Source: Candidatus Thiodiazotropha endoloripes (GTDB lineage Bacteria > Pseudomonadota > Gammaproteobacteria > Chromatiales > Chromatiaceae). From it: a stretch of 64,000 nt of DNA. Positions 39,772 through 60,201 of this stretch are shown here, piece after piece. Numbering within the stretch: position 1 is the first letter of the stretch; every line of letters begins with the position of its first letter. A model generated the notes under the pieces. That model was not told the DNA's origin, did no database searches, and saw only the letters and a list, made by a program, of their open reading frames with translations. The position numbers were made by a program, and so were the translations under genes. The stretch covers positions 1,529,970 to 1,593,969 of the forward strand of contig NZ_LVJW01000006.1 in NCBI RefSeq assembly GCF_001708965.1. Direction: 5' to 3'.

Positions 39772-40299
39772 TCAGGTTTTTTGCTTGGCGCGCCGGGCAA
39801 AACCCATGCCTACCAAACCAAGGCCAAGCAGCGAGAGTGTGGCAGGTTCCGGGACATTGCTGAATCTGACATTGGCATCCGATGCGATTCTGATGCTGTA
39901 GTCACCATAGCCGGACTGATCGCCGCCTCTGTTCACACCCCTGACAGCTTCACCGCGGGTCAGGTCGTAAGCGGAAATGGCTACGATATAGCTCCCTGCC
40001 TGTAATACCCGGTTGATCAATGAATTCAGATTGATCGGAAAGTTACGGTCGTCATTGTGGGCAATCCGGTCATTTCTGTTCAATGTACCGTCATTCTCGA
40101 AGAGAAAGATCTCTGTGTCGAAATCATCCGAGTTGACGGCAATTCTGGTTCTTGCAGCGGCATCCTGATCGAACAGTACATAAGAGACAGATCCAGGTCC
40201 CCCGTCCGTGATGGAGCCAGTGGTTCTGATCACATTTGCCTGACTATTCAAGGGCAGAAGTATCACTAAACAAGCCAGAAAAAAGAGTGATTTCTTCAT
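39772..40299 (-). CDS. PEP-CTERM sorting-domain protein
   Basis: A 175-aa secreted protein. Signal peptide 1-21 (MKKSLFFLACLVILLPLNSQA), a beta-rich body with Asp/Asn-rich turns (SDDFDTEIFLFENDG, NRNDRIAHNDDRN) like pre-peptidase C-terminal folds, then the sorting tail VPEPATLSLLGLGLVG with the hydrophobic helix and the basic end RRAKQK. Such tails are cleaved by exosortase on the way to the cell surface or biofilm matrix. AGGA lies 8 nt before the ATG. No exosortase is in the window; a PEP-CTERM-associated acyltransferase lies at 57.7-58.5 kb. Confidence 0.92.
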   Translation of the reverse strand: MKKSLFFLACLVILLPLNSQANVIRTTGSITDGGPGSVSYVLFDQDAAARTRIAVNSDDFDTEIFLFENDGTLNRNDRIAHNDDRNFPINLNSLINRVLQAGSYIVAISAYDLTRGEAVRGVNRGGDQSGYGDYSIRIASDANVRFSNVPEPATLSLLGLGLVGMGFARRAKQKT

Positions 40300-51567: not shown

Positions 51568-52008
51568 ATGGCCACTCTGTCTGAAGCAGAAAGCATTGAG
51601 CAAATCGTCGAAACCTTCGAGTTTCTTGATGATTGGGATACCCGATATCAATACCTGATCGAGTTGGGTGAAAACCTGCCGCCGATGCCGGCTGCCCTTA
51701 AGACTGAGGAGAATTGGGTTAAGCCCTGCATGAGTACCGTGCACGTGGCGGCTCAGCTGGATCCCGGTCAGTCGGGTTTGATCCGTTTTCAGGGGGACTG
51801 TGATACCGCTATCATCAAAGGTGTGTTGGCGGTACTGATCGATCTGCTCTCCTATCGCAGTCTGGAGGAGATCAGCAATATGGATGTGGATAGTCTGTTT
51901 AAACGTCTGCGGCTGGAAGAGCATCTCAGTCCCAGCAGGCATGTGGGAATCTACGCCATCGTCGATAAAATGGTTGAACGCGCCACAGCTCTGGTTGATG
52001 GTCAGTAA
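51568..52008 (+). CDS. sufE: Sulfur acceptor SufE
   Basis: A 146-aa protein that accepts persulfide sulfur from a cysteine desulfurase and passes it to SufB. The active Cys lies in ENWVKPCMSTVHV, and DWDTRYQYLIELGENLP is the family start. GGAGAGGAG precedes ATG 51568. Last gene of the operon. Its desulfurase partner (SufS) is not in the window. Confidence 0.95.
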   Translation: MATLSEAESIEQIVETFEFLDDWDTRYQYLIELGENLPPMPAALKTEENWVKPCMSTVHVAAQLDPGQSGLIRFQGDCDTAIIKGVLAVLIDLLSYRSLEEISNMDVDSLFKRLRLEEHLSPSRHVGIYAIVDKMVERATALVDGQ

Positions 52009-52029
52009 TAATGTGTTGTAATTGAGACC

Positions 52030-52092
52030 AACCCACTGACCACTCGGGTCAGCGGGTTATTGGTTATCCAGCCGATTCTGTTGAGAATCGGC
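52030..52092. terminator. Two hairpins between convergent sufE and chemoreceptor genes
   Basis: AACCC.CTGACC...GGTCAG.GGGTT (52030-52058) and GCCGATTCT-gttg-AGAATCGGC (52071-52092) stand between the stops. Neither has a T-run. Confidence 0.5.
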
Positions 52093-52106
52093 AGTCGATG
52101 AGGCGC

Positions 52107-53234
52107 TTAATGGTCGCTGGTGCAGAGGATGCTGGAATTGCTCTCACCGGCGCGGGCCAGATCTTCCAGACTTGACAGTACCAGCAGGCTGGCCTCTTCC
52201 ATCTTGGATATCGCGCCGAGGCCATTTTTGTGGTCACCAGCCTTGACATATTCCATCGCCAACTTGCCATTCTTGTGCACATCAAGGTGGGGTGCCTCGA
52301 TCTCGCGGTAACCACTGAGCTGGGAGAAGCAATCCTGACCTTCCCCGTTGTAGTACCAGTTGCCCAGACGACAGTTTCTGTGATCTGTTAACTGATTGGG
52401 TTCCGGCTCTGTGAGTCCCATGAATGATTTATAGATGCCGAACTTAAAGATCAGATGGTCGAGTTTGGCCAACTCGACAAAAGTTCGCAGTGACGTCGAG
52501 GCGATGGCACTCTCCATCTCCTTGGATAGCTCGAACTGCTTCTTGATCATCTGTATGGATTCGGTCACCTGACTCTGGAAACTTTCTGTGACATCCATTA
52601 CCGATGACATGGTCTCGACAGATTTTTTTGTCTCCTGGGTGATGGTATCTACCAGCGCGGCAATTTCTGTGGTTGCCTCTCGGGTTCTGCCAGCCAGATT
52701 GCGTACCTCATCGGCTACCACCGCAAAACCCCGTCCCATCTCACCGGCTCTGGCCGCTTCAATCGCAGCGTTGAGTGCCAACAGATTGGTCTGTTCGGAA
52801 ATTCCCTGAATGATACTGACAAAGTTGCTGATACTGTCCGCGATGGTGCTGAGTTTCACCACGCTGTCGGAGCTTTCCCGGGAGATGGTGGTTACGTTAT
52901 CGATTTCGCTGCTCATCACCTCAACTCCGGAGATGGCCTGGGAGGAGATCTCTGAACCTTTGATGGCGCTCTGCTTCTCTTCCTTCATCGAGTTTGCGGT
53001 GTGGTTCAGGGAGTGTTGCAGTTGGCTGAATGACTCACCAAAGCTGGATAAATTTGCAAACAGTTGTTGATCGAGTTCTCCTTTACTCTGCAGTTTCTCC
53101 TTTTCCTGCCGGAGTGTGTCGTTGTCCCCTTTGACAGCGGCCAGTTCATGTTCCAGTGCCTGAATCCTAGCGTCCTGCTGAGAGATTTGTTCTGCTTGAA
53201 GGGTGAGGGTCTTTTTATTACTTAAGCCAAACAT
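52107..53234 (-). CDS. Soluble chemoreceptor with C-terminal CZB zinc domain
   Basis: A 375-aa cytoplasmic receptor with no membrane segments. N-terminal coiled coil (residues 1-55, [20 protein letters not shown]), MCP signalling domain (60-240) with tip [20 protein letters not shown] and [18 protein letters not shown], then a CZB domain (255-345). CZB ligands: His in LDHLIFKFG, Cys in NCRLGNWYY (the CxLGxWY hallmark), then [11 protein letters not shown] with two His. This matches the TlpD type, which responds to zinc, oxidants or HOCl. GAGGA precedes the ATG. A -10 GCCGATAT suggests sigma-28 control. Confidence 0.93.
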
Positions 53235-53285
53235 GATGTGATCCTCGCAGGGAACTGCAGGAGTTATTGATTACAGGTAAATAGG

Positions 53286-53293
53286 ATATCGGC
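53286..53293 (-). promoter_or_regulatory. Sigma-28-like -10 of the CZB chemoreceptor gene
   Basis: Minus-strand GCCGATAT (7/8 to GCCGATAA) about 52 bp before the start. The -35 region is only TTAAAAAA at the expected distance, so this call is weaker than the sites at 5259 and 32493. Confidence 0.4.
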
Positions 53294-53386
53294 GGGAGTT
53301 ACTTTTTTTTAAGTAATATAATGATTAACTAATAAAACTGAATTCCTTTCAGAGTCGATTCCATGGAGAGGCTGGTGCAGCTCGGA

Positions 53387-55741
53387 TTAATTCAAGGTTT
53401 TCATAGGCTTGTCAATGGGTTGATCGGTTTGATCCAATGGCAATTGAAGCAGGAAAGTCGTACCGACGCCGGCTTCTGTGTTGAAGTTCAGCTTCCCTTT
53501 GTGTTTTCGTACCACGATATCGTGGCTTAGTGTGAGCCCCTGCCCGGTTCCTTCACCCACATCCCTTGTCGTGAAGAATGGATTGAAGATCTGATCCTGC
53601 GCTGATTCGGGAATACCGTCACCGTTATCCGAGATGGCAAGTTGGGCAAACCGGCCCTGCTGGCGGCTGGAGATGGTGATCTTCCCGGTTTGCTGTTTTG
53701 CATTCTCTTCCAATGCCTGGACCGCATTCATCAGGATATTGATCAGGGCCTGATGCATCTCGCTGGGTGAACAGGTCACCAGTGGCAGGGATTCATCCAG
53801 GTCTGTCTCCAGCTCAGCAATCTGTTCCCACTGATAGCGGCTGATCCCTACGATATCCTTGATCAGTTTATTCAGGTCGGTAGGCTCATGGACGGCGTTG
53901 TCGGAGGTAAAAATACGCATTGAGCGAACAATTCTGGAGACCTGCTCAGTGCCCTGGTGGCACTGGCGGATGGTGGTTGCGACCTCTTCATTGAGATACT
54001 CCAGGTCGATCTCCTCCCGCTTCTCATTGCAGGCCTCCAGCTTCGTCGAGAGATCGGATTTGTTCTCGATAGCCGCAATCAGCGCCAGGTAGGTCGATAT
54101 CAGGTCATGGGTATCCTGATGGGCCTCTTCAATGAAACTCAGATTGTTGTTGATAGTCTGTATGGGGGTATTGATCTCATGGGCGATGCCATCCGCCAGT
54201 TGGGCCAAAGCCGACATTTTGTGGTGCTGCGTGCGTTGCAGGGCAAGCTGCTCCCGCTCTGTCTCCATGACCTTTCTTTGGGTAATGTCCCGTATCAAAC
54301 AGATGACATGGCATCCCTTGTCCAGGGTGACTGAAGATATGGCAGCTTCGATTGGAAAGGTCTCGGCGGATTGTCGTATTGCATCGAGTTCCAATAGGGT
54401 GCCGGATAGAGGCTTGTCACACCGGCCGATATGCTCAAGAATCGGATTTGACTGCTGGTCTGTTGATAGCCATTGGTCGATAGTCAGGGTTGCCGCCTGT
54501 TCTGCTGTATAGCCGAATATTTTACTTGCCGCTGGATTCCAGAACTCAATTTTTCCCTGAGGATCGAGCATGATGATTGCATCCAGTGCGGATTCGGCCA
54601 ACTGGGTGAACTTGTTTTCACTCTCTTGTAGCTGGGAAAGATTGTGTTTCAGTTTCGCCTCGGTTGACTGTAACTTGCCGATCGTGTCGGAGAGCCGGCG
54701 TTGGGTACTCCGCAGCCGACGGTTATTTTCAGTGAGCAGCACCAATGAGATTACGATCAACAGCAAAGACGCCACTGTCATGATTGTTGCAATTGGATGG
54801 TGATCGGTCCATTCAATCAACGTGGGAGGGAGACGCTTGTGCGGTGGAATGTTCAAACTTTTGTAGAGTTCATGCACAGACTCATAGTTTGCCGGTACCG
54901 TCCAGCCAAAAGTACCGCTGCTCACGGCTGCAGGATGATCCTTTGGCATATTCAGCAGGGCAATGGAGACCTTCTCGCCAATCGTTTTGGGTGTATGAGG
55001 TAGGGCTGCTATCGGCCATTCCGGATAGAGCTGGCTACTGAGCAGATAGGGGAAGCCCTGGTTTGTCTGTAAGTTGAGTACCTTGATCTCATGTAATTTA
55101 ACCATTCCACTGGCTGACATCTTTTCCAGGGTATCACTGCGTACCGTTCCAGCATCTACCTTACCGTTTATCACGGCATCGACCACGGCGTCATGGGTAT
55201 TGAAGAAGTGCAGTGTTGTCTGCTTGTCCAAGTCGATATTATGGCGTTGCAGTTCTCGTTTGGCCATTAAAAAACCGCCAAGCGAGGTCGGATTGACTGC
55301 GCCGAATGTTATGCCATTCAGATCAGATAAAGCCTGGATTGTCTGGTTGTCCTTGCGGGTGAAAATGACACCGCCAAAACGCTCCTCGGCATGACCGCCG
55401 ACTTTGTTGATCAGGGTGGCAATGCGGAAGGCTCGGAAATCATGTTCGGCTTTGATGTAGATTCCGGAGTTGGCGAGTAAAAAATCGATCTGTTTGGATT
55501 GGATTGCCGGTTCGATCTCTTCAAACGGCAGAGGCACGATTCGAAACCGGGCATCGGTTATCTTCTGTGTCAGGTAGTCTGCGGTTTCTGACCAGCGCTG
55601 CAGGGTGATCGACTCCCCCCGTTTGGCCAGAACACCGATAGCGTATGTTGACCCCTCTTCTGCAGTGCCAGCAGTCAATTGACCGCTTAAGACCAAGATC
55701 AGCAGTACTGATAGCATCCTTGCCCTGGATTGGATACCCAT
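53387..55741 (-). CDS. Sensor histidine kinase with PhnD-like periplasmic domain (TtrS-like)
   Basis: A 784-aa protein. Signal segment 1-24, then a PhnD/SsuA-type binding domain (about 30-300: IGVLAKRGESITLQRWSETADYL, VNPTSLGGFLMAKREL, DAVVDAVINGKVDAGTV), TM at about 318-338, coiled coil, PAS (about 375-490, LAESALDAIIMLDPQGKIEFWNP), HisKA-type H-box LADGIAHEINTPIQT (phosphoacceptor His), N-box ILMNAVQAL and G-boxes DNGDGIP and GTGQGLTLS. The architecture resembles TtrS, the tetrathionate sensor, and similar kinases. No response regulator is adjacent, so it is an orphan in this window. Confidence 0.92.
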   Translation of the reverse strand: MGIQSRARMLSVLLILVLSGQLTAGTAEEGSTYAIGVLAKRGESITLQRWSETADYLTQKITDARFRIVPLPFEEIEPAIQSKQIDFLLANSGIYIKAEHDFRAFRIATLINKVGGHAEERFGGVIFTRKDNQTIQALSDLNGITFGAVNPTSLGGFLMAKRELQRHNIDLDKQTTLHFFNTHDAVVDAVINGKVDAGTVRSDTLEKMSASGMVKLHEIKVLNLQTNQGFPYLLSSQLYPEWPIAALPHTPKTIGEKVSIALLNMPKDHPAAVSSGTFGWTVPANYESVHELYKSLNIPPHKRLPPTLIEWTDHHPIATIMTVASLLLIVISLVLLTENNRRLRSTQRRLSDTIGKLQSTEAKLKHNLSQLQESENKFTQLAESALDAIIMLDPQGKIEFWNPAASKIFGYTAEQAATLTIDQWLSTDQQSNPILEHIGRCDKPLSGTLLELDAIRQSAETFPIEAAISSVTLDKGCHVICLIRDITQRKVMETEREQLALQRTQHHKMSALAQLADGIAHEINTPIQTINNNLSFIEEAHQDTHDLISTYLALIAAIENKSDLSTKLEACNEKREEIDLEYLNEEVATTIRQCHQGTEQVSRIVRSMRIFTSDNAVHEPTDLNKLIKDIVGISRYQWEQIAELETDLDESLPLVTCSPSEMHQALINILMNAVQALEENAKQQTGKITISSRQQGRFAQLAISDNGDGIPESAQDQIFNPFFTTRDVGEGTGQGLTLSHDIVVRKHKGKLNFNTEAGVGTTFLLQLPLDQTDQPIDKPMKTLN

Positions 55742-56057
55742 AGGCTCTTCAAGAGTTTAAATCTGTGTTTGTATCACGTAATTAATATCTGTCATCCACA
55801 AGCAGTCAGCAAAGGGTTCATAGGGAGAACGGCGTTGACAGGATGACTCTTAACTCACGTATATTGCCACTGATAGATAGAGTTTGAACGCTGCTTTGCG
55901 GTGTTGCTAAATAATGTAGCGTCGTCGGTGTGGTTTTTTTTACTGCTCAGGGTGTTCTCTGTGATTGCCATTCCTATTTTTTGAGGCAGTGGGGCTGCCG
56001 GTAACCTCATGTAGGATACAAAGGACTGATTTTTTCCTACCCCTGTTGAGTCGATAG
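55742..56057. other. 316-bp gap
   Basis: No supported gene or site. Sequence is AT-rich near 55770-55800 and 55900-55990; probably holds the kinase promoter (minus strand). Confidence 0.4.
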
Positions 56058-56768
56058 TTACTCCAGTTGTAGTTCGATCTTTCCATTCGCATCCACTCTC
56101 AGAGTCTGGCTGCCTCCTTCGAGAGTGGGGGAGGATGCCCGTCCCTCGATGGCCATCATGTTGGCGCGCATCGGGTAGGGCCCAGGGGAGTGATCAATGG
56201 TTTGAAGCGTCAACTCAACCAGGCGATACCTGCTGCGCCCCATATGCTCAGTGATCTGTTCGGCTCGTTTGCGAAAAGCGCTGATCGCCTGTGCGGTAAG
56301 GGTCTCCTCAGCGGTCTGACGCTGATTTGCAGAGATGGAGTAGCTGAGGGATTCCAGAGCCAATTTGGATTGCAGACTGCCCAACAGATTGCTCATCGCA
56401 TGGTTGTTTTGGCTCTCCAGCCGAATCGATTGGCGAACCCTCCAGCCGATAAGCTGTTGCTGTTGATAGCGGGGGGAGGTTCGATAGCCCAGCGTGCTGA
56501 CCTTGATTTCATTGCGCTGTTTTGCTGTTTTTACAGCTTCCGCGATCAGACGGTTGATCTGGTCAGTAAGCTGCTTCAGGTCGGTACCTTCCCTTTGTGC
56601 GTAGAGGACGGCAGTCTGGGTGTCGTTATCCACCTCCATGGTAGCGTAGGCATTCAACTCTACCAGGTCGTAGTGAAGGGCTGATTCCTCCGCTTTAAGT
56701 GGGCTGATCGAGATCAGCATGACGATCAGGGCTAAGTATAGATTTTGGCGAAAATCTGTATGGTGCAT
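56058..56768 (-). CDS. SIMPL-domain (DUF541) exported protein
   Basis: A 236-aa exported protein with signal peptide ending ISPLKA. The SIMPL/DUF541 fold shows LNAYATMEVDNDTQTAVLYAQREG, KVSTLGYRTSPRYQ, WRVRQSIRLESQN and AQAISAFRKRAEQITEHMGRS. Proteins of this family are periplasmic or outer-membrane-associated with stress-related roles not well defined. GGAGGACTC precedes the ATG, an excellent ribosome site. Downstream of the ThiF gene on the same strand with 85 bp between. Confidence 0.86.
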   Translation of the reverse strand: MHHTDFRQNLYLALIVMLISISPLKAEESALHYDLVELNAYATMEVDNDTQTAVLYAQREGTDLKQLTDQINRLIAEAVKTAKQRNEIKVSTLGYRTSPRYQQQQLIGWRVRQSIRLESQNNHAMSNLLGSLQSKLALESLSYSISANQRQTAEETLTAQAISAFRKRAEQITEHMGRSRYRLVELTLQTIDHSPGPYPMRANMMAIEGRASSPTLEGGSQTLRVDANGKIELQLE

Positions 56769-56853
56769 GAGTCCTCCGGGGATTAACCTTTCAGTATAGT
56801 TATCAATCTCCAGCTTATTGTTACGGCAATTCGAAGATCACTGTTTGCAGGGT

Positions 56854-57741
56854 TTAGGTGGTGCTGGTTTCAGCCTGTTTCGCGGCAGCGATTAATTGGC
56901 GGCTGCCGAACCAGATTGCCAGACGCTGCAGAGGATGACGATTCCCGCCGGGTCTCCAGGTTTTGGCGAGCCGGTTTTGGTAGGCATCGAACTGCAATCC
57001 CCAAGGGGCCGCCGTAACGGCTCCTCGTCCGAGCAGCAGTTTCAATACCTGACTGGCGGCGAATCCAGCGCAGATTTCGCAGCCCATGGCGGTAGAGGGG
57101 CCACGCTTTGCCAGCAGATCGATGCGCTGTGGTTCAACCAGGTAAGCCTGGTGCAATCTCGCCGGGGCCAGGCCGACCAGGAATCGCAGATATTGCTGAT
57201 ACTCATCGACATCCTGAAGCTGGAAGTAGGATTCGAAACTCATCTCGCCGGGCAAGAAGCAGAGCAGAGCCGAACCCATTCCCAATGGTGCTGCTGTTAC
57301 CCCAGGCAGACCCATCTCATAACAGGCGGCAAACACAGCCCGTCTTGCTGTCATGGCAAAGAAATCGAGGCCATCCAGGTAGATGTCACAATCCTGTAAA
57401 AACGCTTCTGCCTGATCCGCTTTCACACCTCGGGGAAAAGGCTTGATATCAAGCTGCGGATTGATTGCCAGGGCAGCATCAATCATGGTGTCGAGCTTAG
57501 GTTTACCAATTGTGTTGAGATTTGCTCCTGATTGGCGATTGAAGTTTTCAACTGCAAAATGATCGAAATCGGCCAGATTGAATTGACCTATTCCAAGTCG
57601 GGTCAGGGTAAGTAGGTGGCTGCCGCCCACACCCCCCAAGCCTGCTATGGCAACACGGGCTTTGCCGAGTTGCTGCTGCTCCGATTCGGTAACCCAGCCG
57701 ATATTCCTTGAAAACGCCAGCTGATAATCAAAGTGTTTCAT
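56854..57741 (-). CDS. ThiF/E1-like adenylyltransferase family protein
   Basis: A 295-aa E1-superfamily protein. Nucleotide-binding motif AGLGGVGGSHLLTLTRLGIG, then LADFDHFAVENFNRQ (the NFNRQ Arg contacts ATP), GKPKLD Lys and LDGLDFFAMTARR. Only one CxxC pair (CEIC) is present, so zinc binding seen in MoeB/ThiF is likely lost. There is no ThiS/MoaD-like partner. The start ATG 57741 overlaps the acyltransferase gene by 14 bp, so the two are coupled. A role in a secreted-product or amino-acyl modification is only inferred. Confidence 0.82.
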   Translation of the reverse strand: MKHFDYQLAFSRNIGWVTESEQQQLGKARVAIAGLGGVGGSHLLTLTRLGIGQFNLADFDHFAVENFNRQSGANLNTIGKPKLDTMIDAALAINPQLDIKPFPRGVKADQAEAFLQDCDIYLDGLDFFAMTARRAVFAACYEMGLPGVTAAPLGMGSALLCFLPGEMSFESYFQLQDVDEYQQYLRFLVGLAPARLHQAYLVEPQRIDLLAKRGPSTAMGCEICAGFAASQVLKLLLGRGAVTAAPWGLQFDAYQNRLAKTWRPGGNRHPLQRLAIWFGSRQLIAAAKQAETSTT

Positions 57742-58513
57742 TCGAGTGTAATTGCAAATTGTTGCCAGGGAATTGCCAGGGTTGTTGCGCAAGATTCTGT
57801 TTGATCAGATCGTAGAGTAGCCTGATGTCGTCAGGCATGTTGCTGGTCAGCTCACTGCTCGGCAGCTCAAATAGTGCCCGTTTGCCATGCAGTTCAAAAT
57901 CGTCACTGATCTTGTGGAACTGAAGTCCGTAACGATTCAGGTGGCGTTGCAGTCTGGGTTCCATGACCACCAGCACCAACTTGAGTCGACATAGATCGAC
58001 CAGGGCGATCGATGACAAATAGAGACCGATGGCAATATTGGGAAAATTTCGTCGCTCCTCTTCAGTATATATTTTGTTTGTGTTGTGACTATCCAGGATA
58101 AACGGTTTGCCAGCTTCGTTGGCCCTGCGCCGAAAATGGAGTGGTACAGCCAGCCGGGATATTTCGCCGATATCCTCAGGGTGGGTTTGCAACAGGCGAT
58201 CGCTCTCTATGTTGGGAATCTGGTGCAACTGATAGGGCAGGTAGCTATCGGATCTGTCCGCGGACGGGACCACCAATCTGACGCAACCCGCAACATCGCC
58301 ACTACGGATATGTTCAAGCAGACAGTGGTGGGAATAGTCATCACAGTGGTCTGTTTCAAGTCGGCTGCTGCTGGACGGTTCCCAGCCTAGCTCTTCTGCA
58401 TAGACTTTGTAGCGGATACTGTAACTGAAACGCTTTTGATGTCGGGAAGCGGCGTAGCGCGGATTGAAAAATTGAAAGAAATTTTGCGCCAGCCTCTCCA
58501 TGTCTCTCTCCAT
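57728..58513 (-). CDS. PEP-CTERM/exosortase-associated acyltransferase (GNAT-like)
   Basis: A 261-aa protein of the exosortase-associated acyltransferase family, related to N-acyl amino acid/homoserine-lactone synthases. Signatures: RYKVYAEELGWEP (entry strand, as in LuxI-like proteins), CDDYSHHCLLEH, GCVRLVVPSA, EISRLAVPLHFRRR and LYLSSIALVDLCRLKLVLVVMEPRLQRHLNRYGL. AGGAAAG precedes the first ATG; a second ATG occurs four codons later. It is translationally coupled to the ThiF-like gene. Confidence 0.88.
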   Translation of the reverse strand: MERDMERLAQNFFQFFNPRYAASRHQKRFSYSIRYKVYAEELGWEPSSSSRLETDHCDDYSHHCLLEHIRSGDVAGCVRLVVPSADRSDSYLPYQLHQIPNIESDRLLQTHPEDIGEISRLAVPLHFRRRANEAGKPFILDSHNTNKIYTEEERRNFPNIAIGLYLSSIALVDLCRLKLVLVVMEPRLQRHLNRYGLQFHKISDDFELHGKRALFELPSSELTSNMPDDIRLLYDLIKQNLAQQPWQFPGNNLQLHSNETL

Positions 58514-59004
58514 AACTTTCCTGGTCTATGCCCTGTCGCTCAATCTACCGACGACCAATCCTGTTGGTCGTTGACCCCTGATCGGCATGGGATCAATGGG
58601 GCAGGGATGTGGCGTTTAAGAGTCTGTTGATACATCAACCTGATGCATAATCAATTATTCTTTCATTCTAATATTCTGTTGCCGCTTTGAGCATTTGACT
58701 TAAACGAACACCCGATGACACAACTCAGTCAATCGATTTAACTGATCTAGCACAATAAATATAGAACAATTTACAGGATTCTTCGCTGATGTAGAGGTAA
58801 AACCATGTAGAATGGCTGGCTTAATTTGTCGTGGTTCTGCGGTTGATGATCGAGTCCTCCCGGTCGGTGGAACCTATCGACTGTGTTTGTGTGGATACAA
58901 TGGATGGGGCTGTTGATCTGGATCACTGATTGCTTGTTTAACGATCAAGTAATTCAGGTGACAGGCGCTATAGTGACGGCCACGATGTTGTGGGATCTAA
59001 CGGA
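58514..59004. other. 491-bp gap between acyltransferase and cyclase
   Basis: Non-coding. Contains the FNR-like box at 58913-58926 and a TATAGT at 58969-58974. Otherwise AT-rich with no hairpin that I could support. Confidence 0.45.
58913..58926 (+). promoter_or_regulatory. FNR-like box upstream of the membrane cyclase
   Basis: TTGATCTGGATCAC matches TTGAT-N4-ATCAA at 9/10. The core is identical to the perfect box at 25306. With TATAGT as -10, it would sit near -61.5, a class I position. Confidence 0.5.
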
Positions 59005-60201
59005 ATGATCAGTTTTGAGAAAATGTATATAACGATCAGTGAATCACTAGGGATATATACCAAAGATCAACTCTACGAGTTGTTCACGACCAAGGAACAT
59101 GGTCTGCCAATCTCCGGACACCGGGCTGCGATTATCCAGAGCCGGGTATTCTTCTTTTGTGTTGTTTTTGCGGTACTGGTACCGGCCTGGTCGATCATCG
59201 ATCTGCTCTTTCTGCCCAGCGCCCTGTGGGGCGGTCTGCTGACGATCAGAGCTGTATCCGGTATTGTTTTCGCCATCCTGGCCTGGTTGTCCCGTCGCCA
59301 ACCGACCATGAAACTGGCGCGCCTGCTATTGGCCGGTATGCTCGCGGTAACCCCGATTTTCTATCTCGCTTCAGGCTATTGGATTGAGGGTTATCCGCTC
59401 ACCAGTCAGGAGCAGATCATTGCCGGGCTTTACGGCTTGCTGCCGTTTGTAATGGTGGCTGGATTAACGCTCTTTCCATTAACATTGTTTGAATTCCTCG
59501 CCTATGCAGTGCCCCTGTTTCTGGTTACCTTGGTTTCAGCGTTTCCCGGTAGTGAAGCTGAAATACCTCAGGCGGTTTCCACCATGTGGCTGCTGATCCT
59601 GATCCTCGGAGTGGCGCTGTTCTCCTCCCTGACCCAGTTGCGCTACATGCTCTCACAGGTCAGTCGCGCCAGTTACGATGTGCTCACCGGTATGCTTACC
59701 CGACGTGCCGGCATAGAAGTTCTTGATCTGCAGTTTCGACTGGCTTCCATGGGGGGCGGGTCGATGTCGATTCTCTACTTCGATCTGGATAACTTCAAAG
59801 CGGTAAACGATACCTACGGGCACGATACCGGTGACAAAGTGCTTAAGACCGCATCTGAACAGATCTGTAACTGTGTGCGTAAAGGGGACAGTGTGATTCG
59901 CTGGGGTGGTGAGGAGTTTGTTGTGGTATTACCTACCGCTGATCCCAGGGAAGCGAATGAGGTTGTGAGTCGAATCATGACGGCAGGTGTTGGGGAGCGT
60001 CCTGAAGGAGGGCCGGTGACGGCCAGTATCGGTGTGGCTGAAGTTCAGGAAGACAACGTCAATGATTGGAAGGCGCAGATTGAGCTGGCCGATCATCGTA
60101 TGTATTCCGCCAAGACCAGTGGCCGTGCCCGATCCATCGGTGTCGATGGCAATGCCATACTCTGGGCTGAGGGGAGTCAGGCCCAGGCAGTCAATAAGTG
60201 A
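59005..60201 (+). CDS. Membrane-bound diguanylate cyclase
   Basis: A 398-aa protein. Residues 1-45 are cytoplasmic, then about six hydrophobic segments (about 50-215: VFFFCVVFAVLVPAWSI, LAGMLAVTPIFYLASGYW, GLYGLLPFVMVAGLTLFPL, LLILILGVALFSSL), then GGDEF (225-390) with WGGEEFV and an intact RKGD inhibitory motif. DLDNFKAVNDTYGHDTGD is canonical. The ATG at 59005 is used; a GTG at 58990 and ATG at 59023 are alternatives. Convergent with the adaptor gene, stops 2 bp apart. Possible FNR control. Confidence 0.92.
   Translation: MISFEKMYITISESLGIYTKDQLYELFTTKEHGLPISGHRAAIIQSRVFFFCVVFAVLVPAWSIIDLLFLPSALWGGLLTIRAVSGIVFAILAWLSRRQPTMKLARLLLAGMLAVTPIFYLASGYWIEGYPLTSQEQIIAGLYGLLPFVMVAGLTLFPLTLFEFLAYAVPLFLVTLVSAFPGSEAEIPQAVSTMWLLILILGVALFSSLTQLRYMLSQVSRASYDVLTGMLTRRAGIEVLDLQFRLASMGGGSMSILYFDLDNFKAVNDTYGHDTGDKVLKTASEQICNCVRKGDSVIRWGGEEFVVVLPTADPREANEVVSRIMTAGVGERPEGGPVTASIGVAEVQEDNVNDWKAQIELADHRMYSAKTSGRARSIGVDGNAILWAEGSQAQAVNK

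Follow-up and report, generated by a model that had tools for sequence, protein, structure and literature searches.

The 64,000-nucleotide stretch of Candidatus Thiodiazotropha endoloripes contig NZ_LVJW01000006.1 analysed here (hereafter the window) carries two overlapping genes, one encoding an acyltransferase and the other a ThiF-like adenylating enzyme. The reading that we favor, with some confidence, is that this pair forms a two-enzyme, probably translationally coupled pathway of the acyl-oxazolone type, which would make a saturated, reactive azlactone via an N-acyl amino acid; it draws on the sequence and on analogy with known systems. The comparison suggests that the pair resembles steps one and two of a route already described, whose usual third enzyme, a flavin desaturase (FDO), was not found, the new element being this desaturase-less version. 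An earlier note on the same DNA had already joined an activating enzyme to an acyl-transfer enzyme and considered an acyl-amino-acid product, which we also regard as probable. Its statement that no defined pathway was known for such a pair does not stand, since TyzABC, TrzAS and OxzAB are described in passages of PMC10404671 and PMC12856293, and related clusters of N-acyl amino acid synthase (NAS), ThiF and nitroreductase genes in passages of PMC12479983.

The acyltransferase scores 196.7 bits with TIGR03694, the model of exosortase-associated acyltransferases (curated cut-off 111.95), which confirms the family named in the earlier note. The ThiF-like protein reaches 408.1 bits with NF006077/PRK08223 (curated cut-off 266), followed by PRK14851 and PRK14852, and remains far below the curated cut-offs of the MoeB, ThiF and TcdA models; it is 96% identical to its counterpart in the nearest named record, of Ca. 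T. endoloripes. The fold of the acyltransferase is close to that of acyl-homoserine lactone (AHL) synthase (LuxI), and the top match by fold is AclA (9egb), of which we met no mention in the literature searched. A LuxI-like signaling role, for which the likeness of fold is the sole argument, was rejected; the score with the Pfam model Autoind_synth (LuxI) is 21.8 bits, below the cut-off of 24.

All the adenylation residues are present in the ThiF-like protein, where R12, G37, G39, D58, D60, N66, R69, Q70, K82 and D126 align with R14, G41, G43, D62, D64, N70, R73, Q74, K86 and D130 of MoeB; the ATP/adenylate motifs noticed earlier are therefore kept, and the adenylate pocket is present. The positions of MoeB that we take to bind zinc through two CxxC pairs and to provide the catalytic cysteine look different: S171 and Q174 stand at the site of the first pair, nothing corresponds to the second, and the position of Cys187 is occupied by L185. 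The single CxxC that had been reported does exist (C221-E-I-C224), but it corresponds to neither of the MoeB/ThiF zinc pairs and is not a retained zinc motif. D126 is the presumed equivalent of Asp217 of TrzS, a residue described as binding ATP and as required, its replacement in D217A abolishing both steps of that enzyme (part of PMC12856293).

Conservation was assessed in 56 genomes, consisting of the source genome (G000) and relatives, 22 of them from the genus Thiodiazotropha. Each of the two genes is found above cut-off in 24 genomes, and both occur in 20 of the 22 genus genomes, counting G008, whose ThiF gene is split across two contigs and hence falls below cut-off; the other two, G011 and G014, have neither. 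As neighbors the genes are strictly kept, with an in-frame ATG giving the identical 14-bp overlap at all 19 genus loci examined (extra ATGs lie upstream of the ThiF start at L036, L047 and L049). In the window, for which coordinates, strand and overlap had been given correctly, this overlap rests on the ATG at 57741 as the ThiF start; a longer frame begins with a TTG at 57792. The median pairwise ratio of nonsynonymous to synonymous substitutions (dN/dS) is 0.088 for ThiF (94 of 171 pairs usable, with dS near saturation at a median of 1.66) and 0.111 for the acyltransferase (44 of 171 pairs usable). The pair is under purifying selection, and the conserved overlap together with the low dN/dS is no chance arrangement; translational coupling of the two genes is probable. 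With the neighborhood kept across the genus and the adenylate pocket present, neither of the outcomes that the earlier note had named as refuting its reading was observed.

The FDO was sought in the genomes with one profile made from 4 FDOs and another made from 25, which recover the enzyme in G024, G031, G032 and G055. Neither profile finds a match in the source genome, which is 99.95% complete, and the same is true of 20 of the other 21 Thiodiazotropha genomes. At the locus, no FDO is fused or adjacent to the ThiF gene, and no remnant of one was detected in the six frames of window positions 51901-59500 (best E 0.3).

The usual company of the family was examined at 80 named loci, the best of at least 528 ThiF relatives, nine of them from Thiodiazotropha and 71 from outside the genus (L062 and L065 are contigs of G012 and G005 under vaguer names). 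Among the 71, the FDO is fused to ThiF in 27, lies within 3 kb in 34 and was not found in 10. Four of these 10 (L071, L072, L084, L101) end at most 1.5 kb after ThiF; L084, scored as negative, ends in a cut-off frame that begins an FDO (27 bits, below the limit of 60). The FDO-less state is not unique to Thiodiazotropha, because L085, L100, L106 and L109 likewise show no FDO despite more than 7 kb on either side, and the whole genome behind L106 (whose contig is shared with G044) is also without a profile match. An acyltransferase scoring above 60 bits lies within 3.5 kb of ThiF at 45 of the 71 loci. Outside the genus, the acyltransferases with the highest identity (39-46%) come from Colwelliaceae, Motiliproteus, and Rheinheimera with its near copies. 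The values are 46% in Rheinheimera, 44% in both Motiliproteus and Pseudocolwellia, and 42% in Thalassotalea, and in these four genera the gene order is acyltransferase-ThiF-FDO on one strand. On a quick ThiF tree, with SH-aLRT values and no bootstrap, the Thiodiazotropha proteins form a single clade (SH-aLRT 100), which groups weakly with FDO-bearing proteins of Marinobacterium, Rheinheimera, Motiliproteus and Colwelliaceae. The three FDO states require at least 22 changes on this tree, which implies that loss, gain or splitting of the FDO has happened repeatedly.

Some individual loci differ in their make-up. The ThiF protein of L071, a contig binned as Legionella sp., groups with Methylococcaceae, possibly as a result of a binning error. 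In Thioalkalivibrio denitrificans (L100:5378-7949), two consecutive acyltransferase genes are followed by the FDO-less ThiF gene, a third related open reading frame (ORF) lying on the opposite strand. The Nitratidesulfovibrio plasmid pDsulf-L2-1 (L155:4068-6992) encodes a 974-aa PRK14852 protein with ThiF and FDO-like parts, in which PRK08223 matches residues 312-588, and Rv1355c-type and Acg-type models match 566-970 and 620-970; two THxN PEP-CTERM genes stand beside it, and an XrtA/PEP-CTERM glycosyltransferase within 5 kb. It was considered as an acyltransferase-ThiF-FDO fusion and rejected as such, its first 300 residues matching no acyltransferase model at E <= 1e-4. The Bdellovibrio plasmid pBdHAGR2 (L156:4977-5852) carries a lone ThiF relative (44% over 91% of the query), with ABC transporter genes nearby and no nitroreductase or acyltransferase annotation in the stretch.

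From these elements we infer the substrates, the cyclization, and the saturation and fate of the product as follows. The acyltransferase would acylate the amino group of a probably aromatic amino acid with a fatty acyl group taken from acyl-ACP (acyl carrier protein) or acyl-CoA, and the ThiF-like protein would adenylate the carboxylate of the N-acyl amino acid so formed. The amide oxygen would then attack, AMP would leave, and the 5(4H)-oxazolone (azlactone) ring would close. This ring would remain saturated, because the usual partner desaturase was not found in the genome. A parallel is offered by TrzS, a ThiF-FDO fusion described as cyclizing before it desaturates: since the cyclized, non-oxidized ring builds up at low O2 or with the R540A substitution, a ThiF domain working without desaturation would be expected to give the saturated ring (part of PMC12856293). 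The reactive ring could be the end product, or it could serve as an activated N-acyl-aminoacyl donor opened by an amine, an alcohol or water; the same source describes oxazolones as hydrolyzed by acid and ring-opened by alcohols.

Several observations weigh against this azlactone pathway. A distant relative of the ThiF-like protein (L055) has Glu at the position of D126, the Rv1355c-family model gives the window protein 56.3 bits against a cut-off of 476, and in the fold comparison FeeM is no nearer to the acyltransferase than a plain GNAT. The placement of the genus beside FDO-bearing proteins is weak (SH-aLRT 80). In a sample of 276 genomes of the class (completeness >=90%, evenly drawn), 29 carry ThiF and 38 carry the acyltransferase; 5 of the 29 have no TIGR03694 member, and 14 of the 38 have no ThiF. 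TyzB, OxzB and TrzS are likened to the window protein by their description, not by alignment. NAS, ThiF and nitroreductase genes occur together in producers of thalassotalic acid, kyonggic acid and stieleriacine, yet PMC12479983 remarks that these have not been seen to yield an oxazolone, which leaves the role of ThiF there unsettled. Within the genus, a 366-aa frame of G005 is matched by both FDO profiles over their first half (3-174 of 360; 3-168 of 347), and two nitroreductase-family ORFs on contig C7 of the source genome could conceivably take the place of the FDO.

The last two points would favor an ordinary three-enzyme oxazolone or dehydro-amino-acid pathway, in which desaturation is carried out by an unlinked, unrecognized oxidase, all the more as TyzC-type FDOs are described as sometimes being separate proteins (part of PMC10404671). 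The C7 ORFs contain three nitroreductase-family matches in two frames (one a 554-aa frame with two such stretches, at G000:C7:176223-177455), but both frames escape the FDO profiles that recover the enzyme elsewhere, and the absence of a match in nearly the whole genus speaks against such an oxidase too; we regard this explanation as unlikely. Sulfur-carrier or ubiquitin-like activation by an E1 of the MoeB/ThiF type, merely placed beside an acyltransferase, is extremely improbable: neither the catalytic cysteine nor either of the zinc CxxC pairs is present, the scores with the MoeB, ThiF and TcdA models are far too low, the linkage to the acyltransferase is fixed in the genus, and the 476-bp gap upstream of the pair, to which the search was confined, has no small ORF with a Gly-Gly end. 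The source genome has, in addition, two further ThiF-family frames of 260 and 261 aa, presumably of the MoeB and TcdA types. A sulfur-carrier E1 identity was rejected on the alignment to MoeB, and TcdA on a score of 51.3 bits against a cut-off of 304.

A third alternative, in which ThiF would activate the N-acyl amino acid just for transfer to an amine or alcohol at the cell surface (a PEP-CTERM protein, a polysaccharide or a lipid), takes its strength from the distribution of exosortases. With an exosortase limit of E <= 1e-15, 86 of the 276 class genomes have one: 28 of the 29 with ThiF versus 58 of the 247 others (Fisher p 4e-15, not corrected for descent), and 28 of the 38 with the acyltransferase versus 58 of 238 others. 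The 29 ThiF genomes span 22 families, with exosortase in 21, and the acyltransferase itself occurs in 24 of the 29 versus 14 of the 247 without ThiF. Computed from the exosortase matches on ThiF-bearing contigs, the distance between the two genes is 12.5-46 kb in 12 of the 29 genomes, and more than 400 kb in two more. The link of the ThiF family to the exosortase/PEP-CTERM system is real, and the co-occurrence contemplated in the earlier note was borne out across genomes. A connection between the acyltransferase and exosortase has been published (Craig 2011, as cited elsewhere), the passages citing it making no mention of a ThiF partner, and UBA/THIF-type genes are listed in a Rubrivivax exosortase/exopolysaccharide locus in a part of PMC3684757; in the open-licence literature searched, we did not meet the claim that the distribution of the ThiF cyclase family itself tracks that of exosortase. 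In Methylomonas LW13, a mutant in the acyltransferase (ExoAT) lacks the normal polysaccharide band, but this defect need not be specific, because two unrelated mutants share it and all three fail to grow in a gradient (passages of PMC11072679). Against surface transfer also stand the control for descent by even sampling alone and the situation in Thiodiazotropha, where the link is loose and no full-length exosortase lies near the pair: the two full-length exosortases of the source genome are on contig C3, whereas C6 carries the pair; G021 retains the two genes but shows no exosortase match, G012 (92% complete) retains them with a weak match in a 180-aa frame, and the pair is missing from G011 and G014, which do have an exosortase. 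Transfer to the surface as the sole role thus appears quite unlikely.

The same alternative draws on the PEP-CTERM genes, whose tails were sought with a custom pattern that may miss some. A PEP-CTERM-tailed ORF lies within 3 kb of ThiF/FDO at 40 of the 71 loci outside the genus and, by this pattern, within 3 kb of the pair at none of the nine Thiodiazotropha loci. The 80 loci hold 48 such ORFs; for 30 of them, the end closer to ThiF/FDO falls within the kilobase that follows it. BLAST links 33 of the 40 neighboring proteins. In widely different Proteobacteria, ThiF(-FDO) is immediately followed by a PEP-CTERM gene of the PepA/EDSAP-1-like kind (L060-L139, often at ~10.0-11.3 kb). These neighbors were also considered as members of the THxN family, an assignment rejected on the absence of the THxN motif in 39 of 40. 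In the 28 of the 40 that were scanned at E <= 1e-3, matches to THxN (27), PepA (26) and EDSAP-1 (24) were obtained, and in the one member viewed in full the shared tail is their main cause. The PEP-CTERM gene that the earlier note placed 18 kb from the pair is real, with 42.8 bits for NF038127 (DVUA0089 family, cut-off 29) and scores below cut-off for EDSAP-1 (49.5 of 100) and PepA (45.7 of 80), but its linkage to the pair is unsupported. It is a neighbor in the closest clade only, where ~19-20 kb separate it from the pair in G007, G012 and G016. In G008 and G010 the two are on different contigs, in G015 and G003 the distance is 380-395 kb, and in the remaining genomes the gene is far off, on another contig or a weak match.

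Upstream of the acyltransferase, a GGDEF gene is the neighbor in 19 of 20 genus loci. Among the best 80 relatives, a GGDEF-motif ORF occurs at 10 loci, 7 of Thiodiazotropha and 3 of the 71 outside, and the arrangement is therefore one of the genus. A scan for consensus promoters and terminators at the locus, the gap between pair and GGDEF gene included, stayed at chance level. The gene that immediately follows ThiF, in the same orientation, encodes a SIMPL/DUF541 protein (window 56058-56768); a relative of it is the next same-strand gene in just 5 of the 18 genus loci with a scored downstream gene, and so it is not a fixed part. The coordinates of the features are collected in Table 1.

Table 1. 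Features of the window discussed in the text.
Feature	Coordinates	Strand	Basis
N-acyl amino acid synthase-like acyltransferase (TIGR03694 family), 261 aa	57728..58513	-	profile score
ThiF-like adenylating enzyme, predicted N-acyl amino acid cyclase, 295 aa, ATG start	56854..57741	-	profile score
Overlap of acyltransferase stop with ThiF start, 14 bp	57728..57741	-	19/19 Thiodiazotropha loci
Divergent diguanylate cyclase (GGDEF)	58990..60201	+	PF00990 125.8 bits
Gap between pair and GGDEF gene, possible shared regulatory region	58514..58989	.	position only
PEP-CTERM protein, 175 aa, VPEPATLSLLGLGLVGMGFARR tail; probably not part of the pair's unit	39772..40299	-	PEP-CTERM domain 26.5 bits (cut-off 16)

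If the azlactone pathway holds, an oxazolone-pathway cyclase would work naturally without a desaturase, and a chemosynthetic animal symbiont would make a saturated azlactone, which is a small molecule with strong acylating power. The ThiF cyclase, and not the acyltransferase alone, is also tied to the exosortase/PEP-CTERM system, a link that can be tested by deletion in culturable relatives. A much bolder idea, to which we give little credence, is that the acyltransferase-ThiF module supplies an activated azlactone building block with which PepA/EDSAP-type PEP-CTERM proteins or exopolysaccharide are lipid-modified. The module would then make the lipid partner that one branch of the exosortase system still lacks, with the ring stabilized by FDO-bearing members and kept in its reactive form by Thiodiazotropha.

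The components of the pair have several known counterparts. NasY-type N-acyl amino acid synthases share with the window acyltransferase an AHL-synthase-like fold and the TIGR03694 family, of which we presume NasY to be a member. On the side of the ThiF-like protein, TcdA (tRNA ct6A dehydratase) closes a ring after adenylation of a carboxylate, and MccB-like enzymes of ribosomally synthesized and post-translationally modified peptides (RiPPs) also combine E1-like carboxylate adenylation with attack by a neighboring group, which in MccB gives a succinimide (part of PMC12250964); both differ from the window enzyme in their substrates.

As whole systems, the clusters for thalassotalic acid, kyonggic acid and stieleriacine are alike in their NAS and ThiF genes with short gaps or overlaps, and unlike in having a desaturase and products with a 2,3-dehydrotyrosine core; gene sets of this kind are carried by a Thalassotalea strain and by M. 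kyonggiensis, both of which produce N-acyl dehydrotyrosines (passages of PMC12479983), and the cluster of Stieleria maiorica contains a PEP-CTERM gene (part of PMC7293339). In TyzABC, TyzA acylates amino acids, TyzB (ThiF) performs an ATP-dependent cyclization and TyzC (FDO) desaturates. The acyltransferase and the cyclase are separate proteins there, as in the window; unlike the overlapping window genes, tyzA lies on the opposite strand and the desaturase is present, and the few homologs of tyzA are mostly mycobacterial (part of PMC10404671). TrzAS of Mycobacterium and Rhodococcus, next to which genes of cyclic di-GMP are found (part of PMC12856293), and OxzAB of Pseudoalteromonas rubra, compared here as described in PMC10404671 and PMC12856293, likewise place a synthase gene beside a ThiF-like, ATP-dependent cyclase. 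In both, the ThiF domain is fused to the flavin desaturase, whereas in Thiodiazotropha endoloripes it stands as a protein of its own, with an FDO neither fused, nor adjacent, nor matched in the genome.
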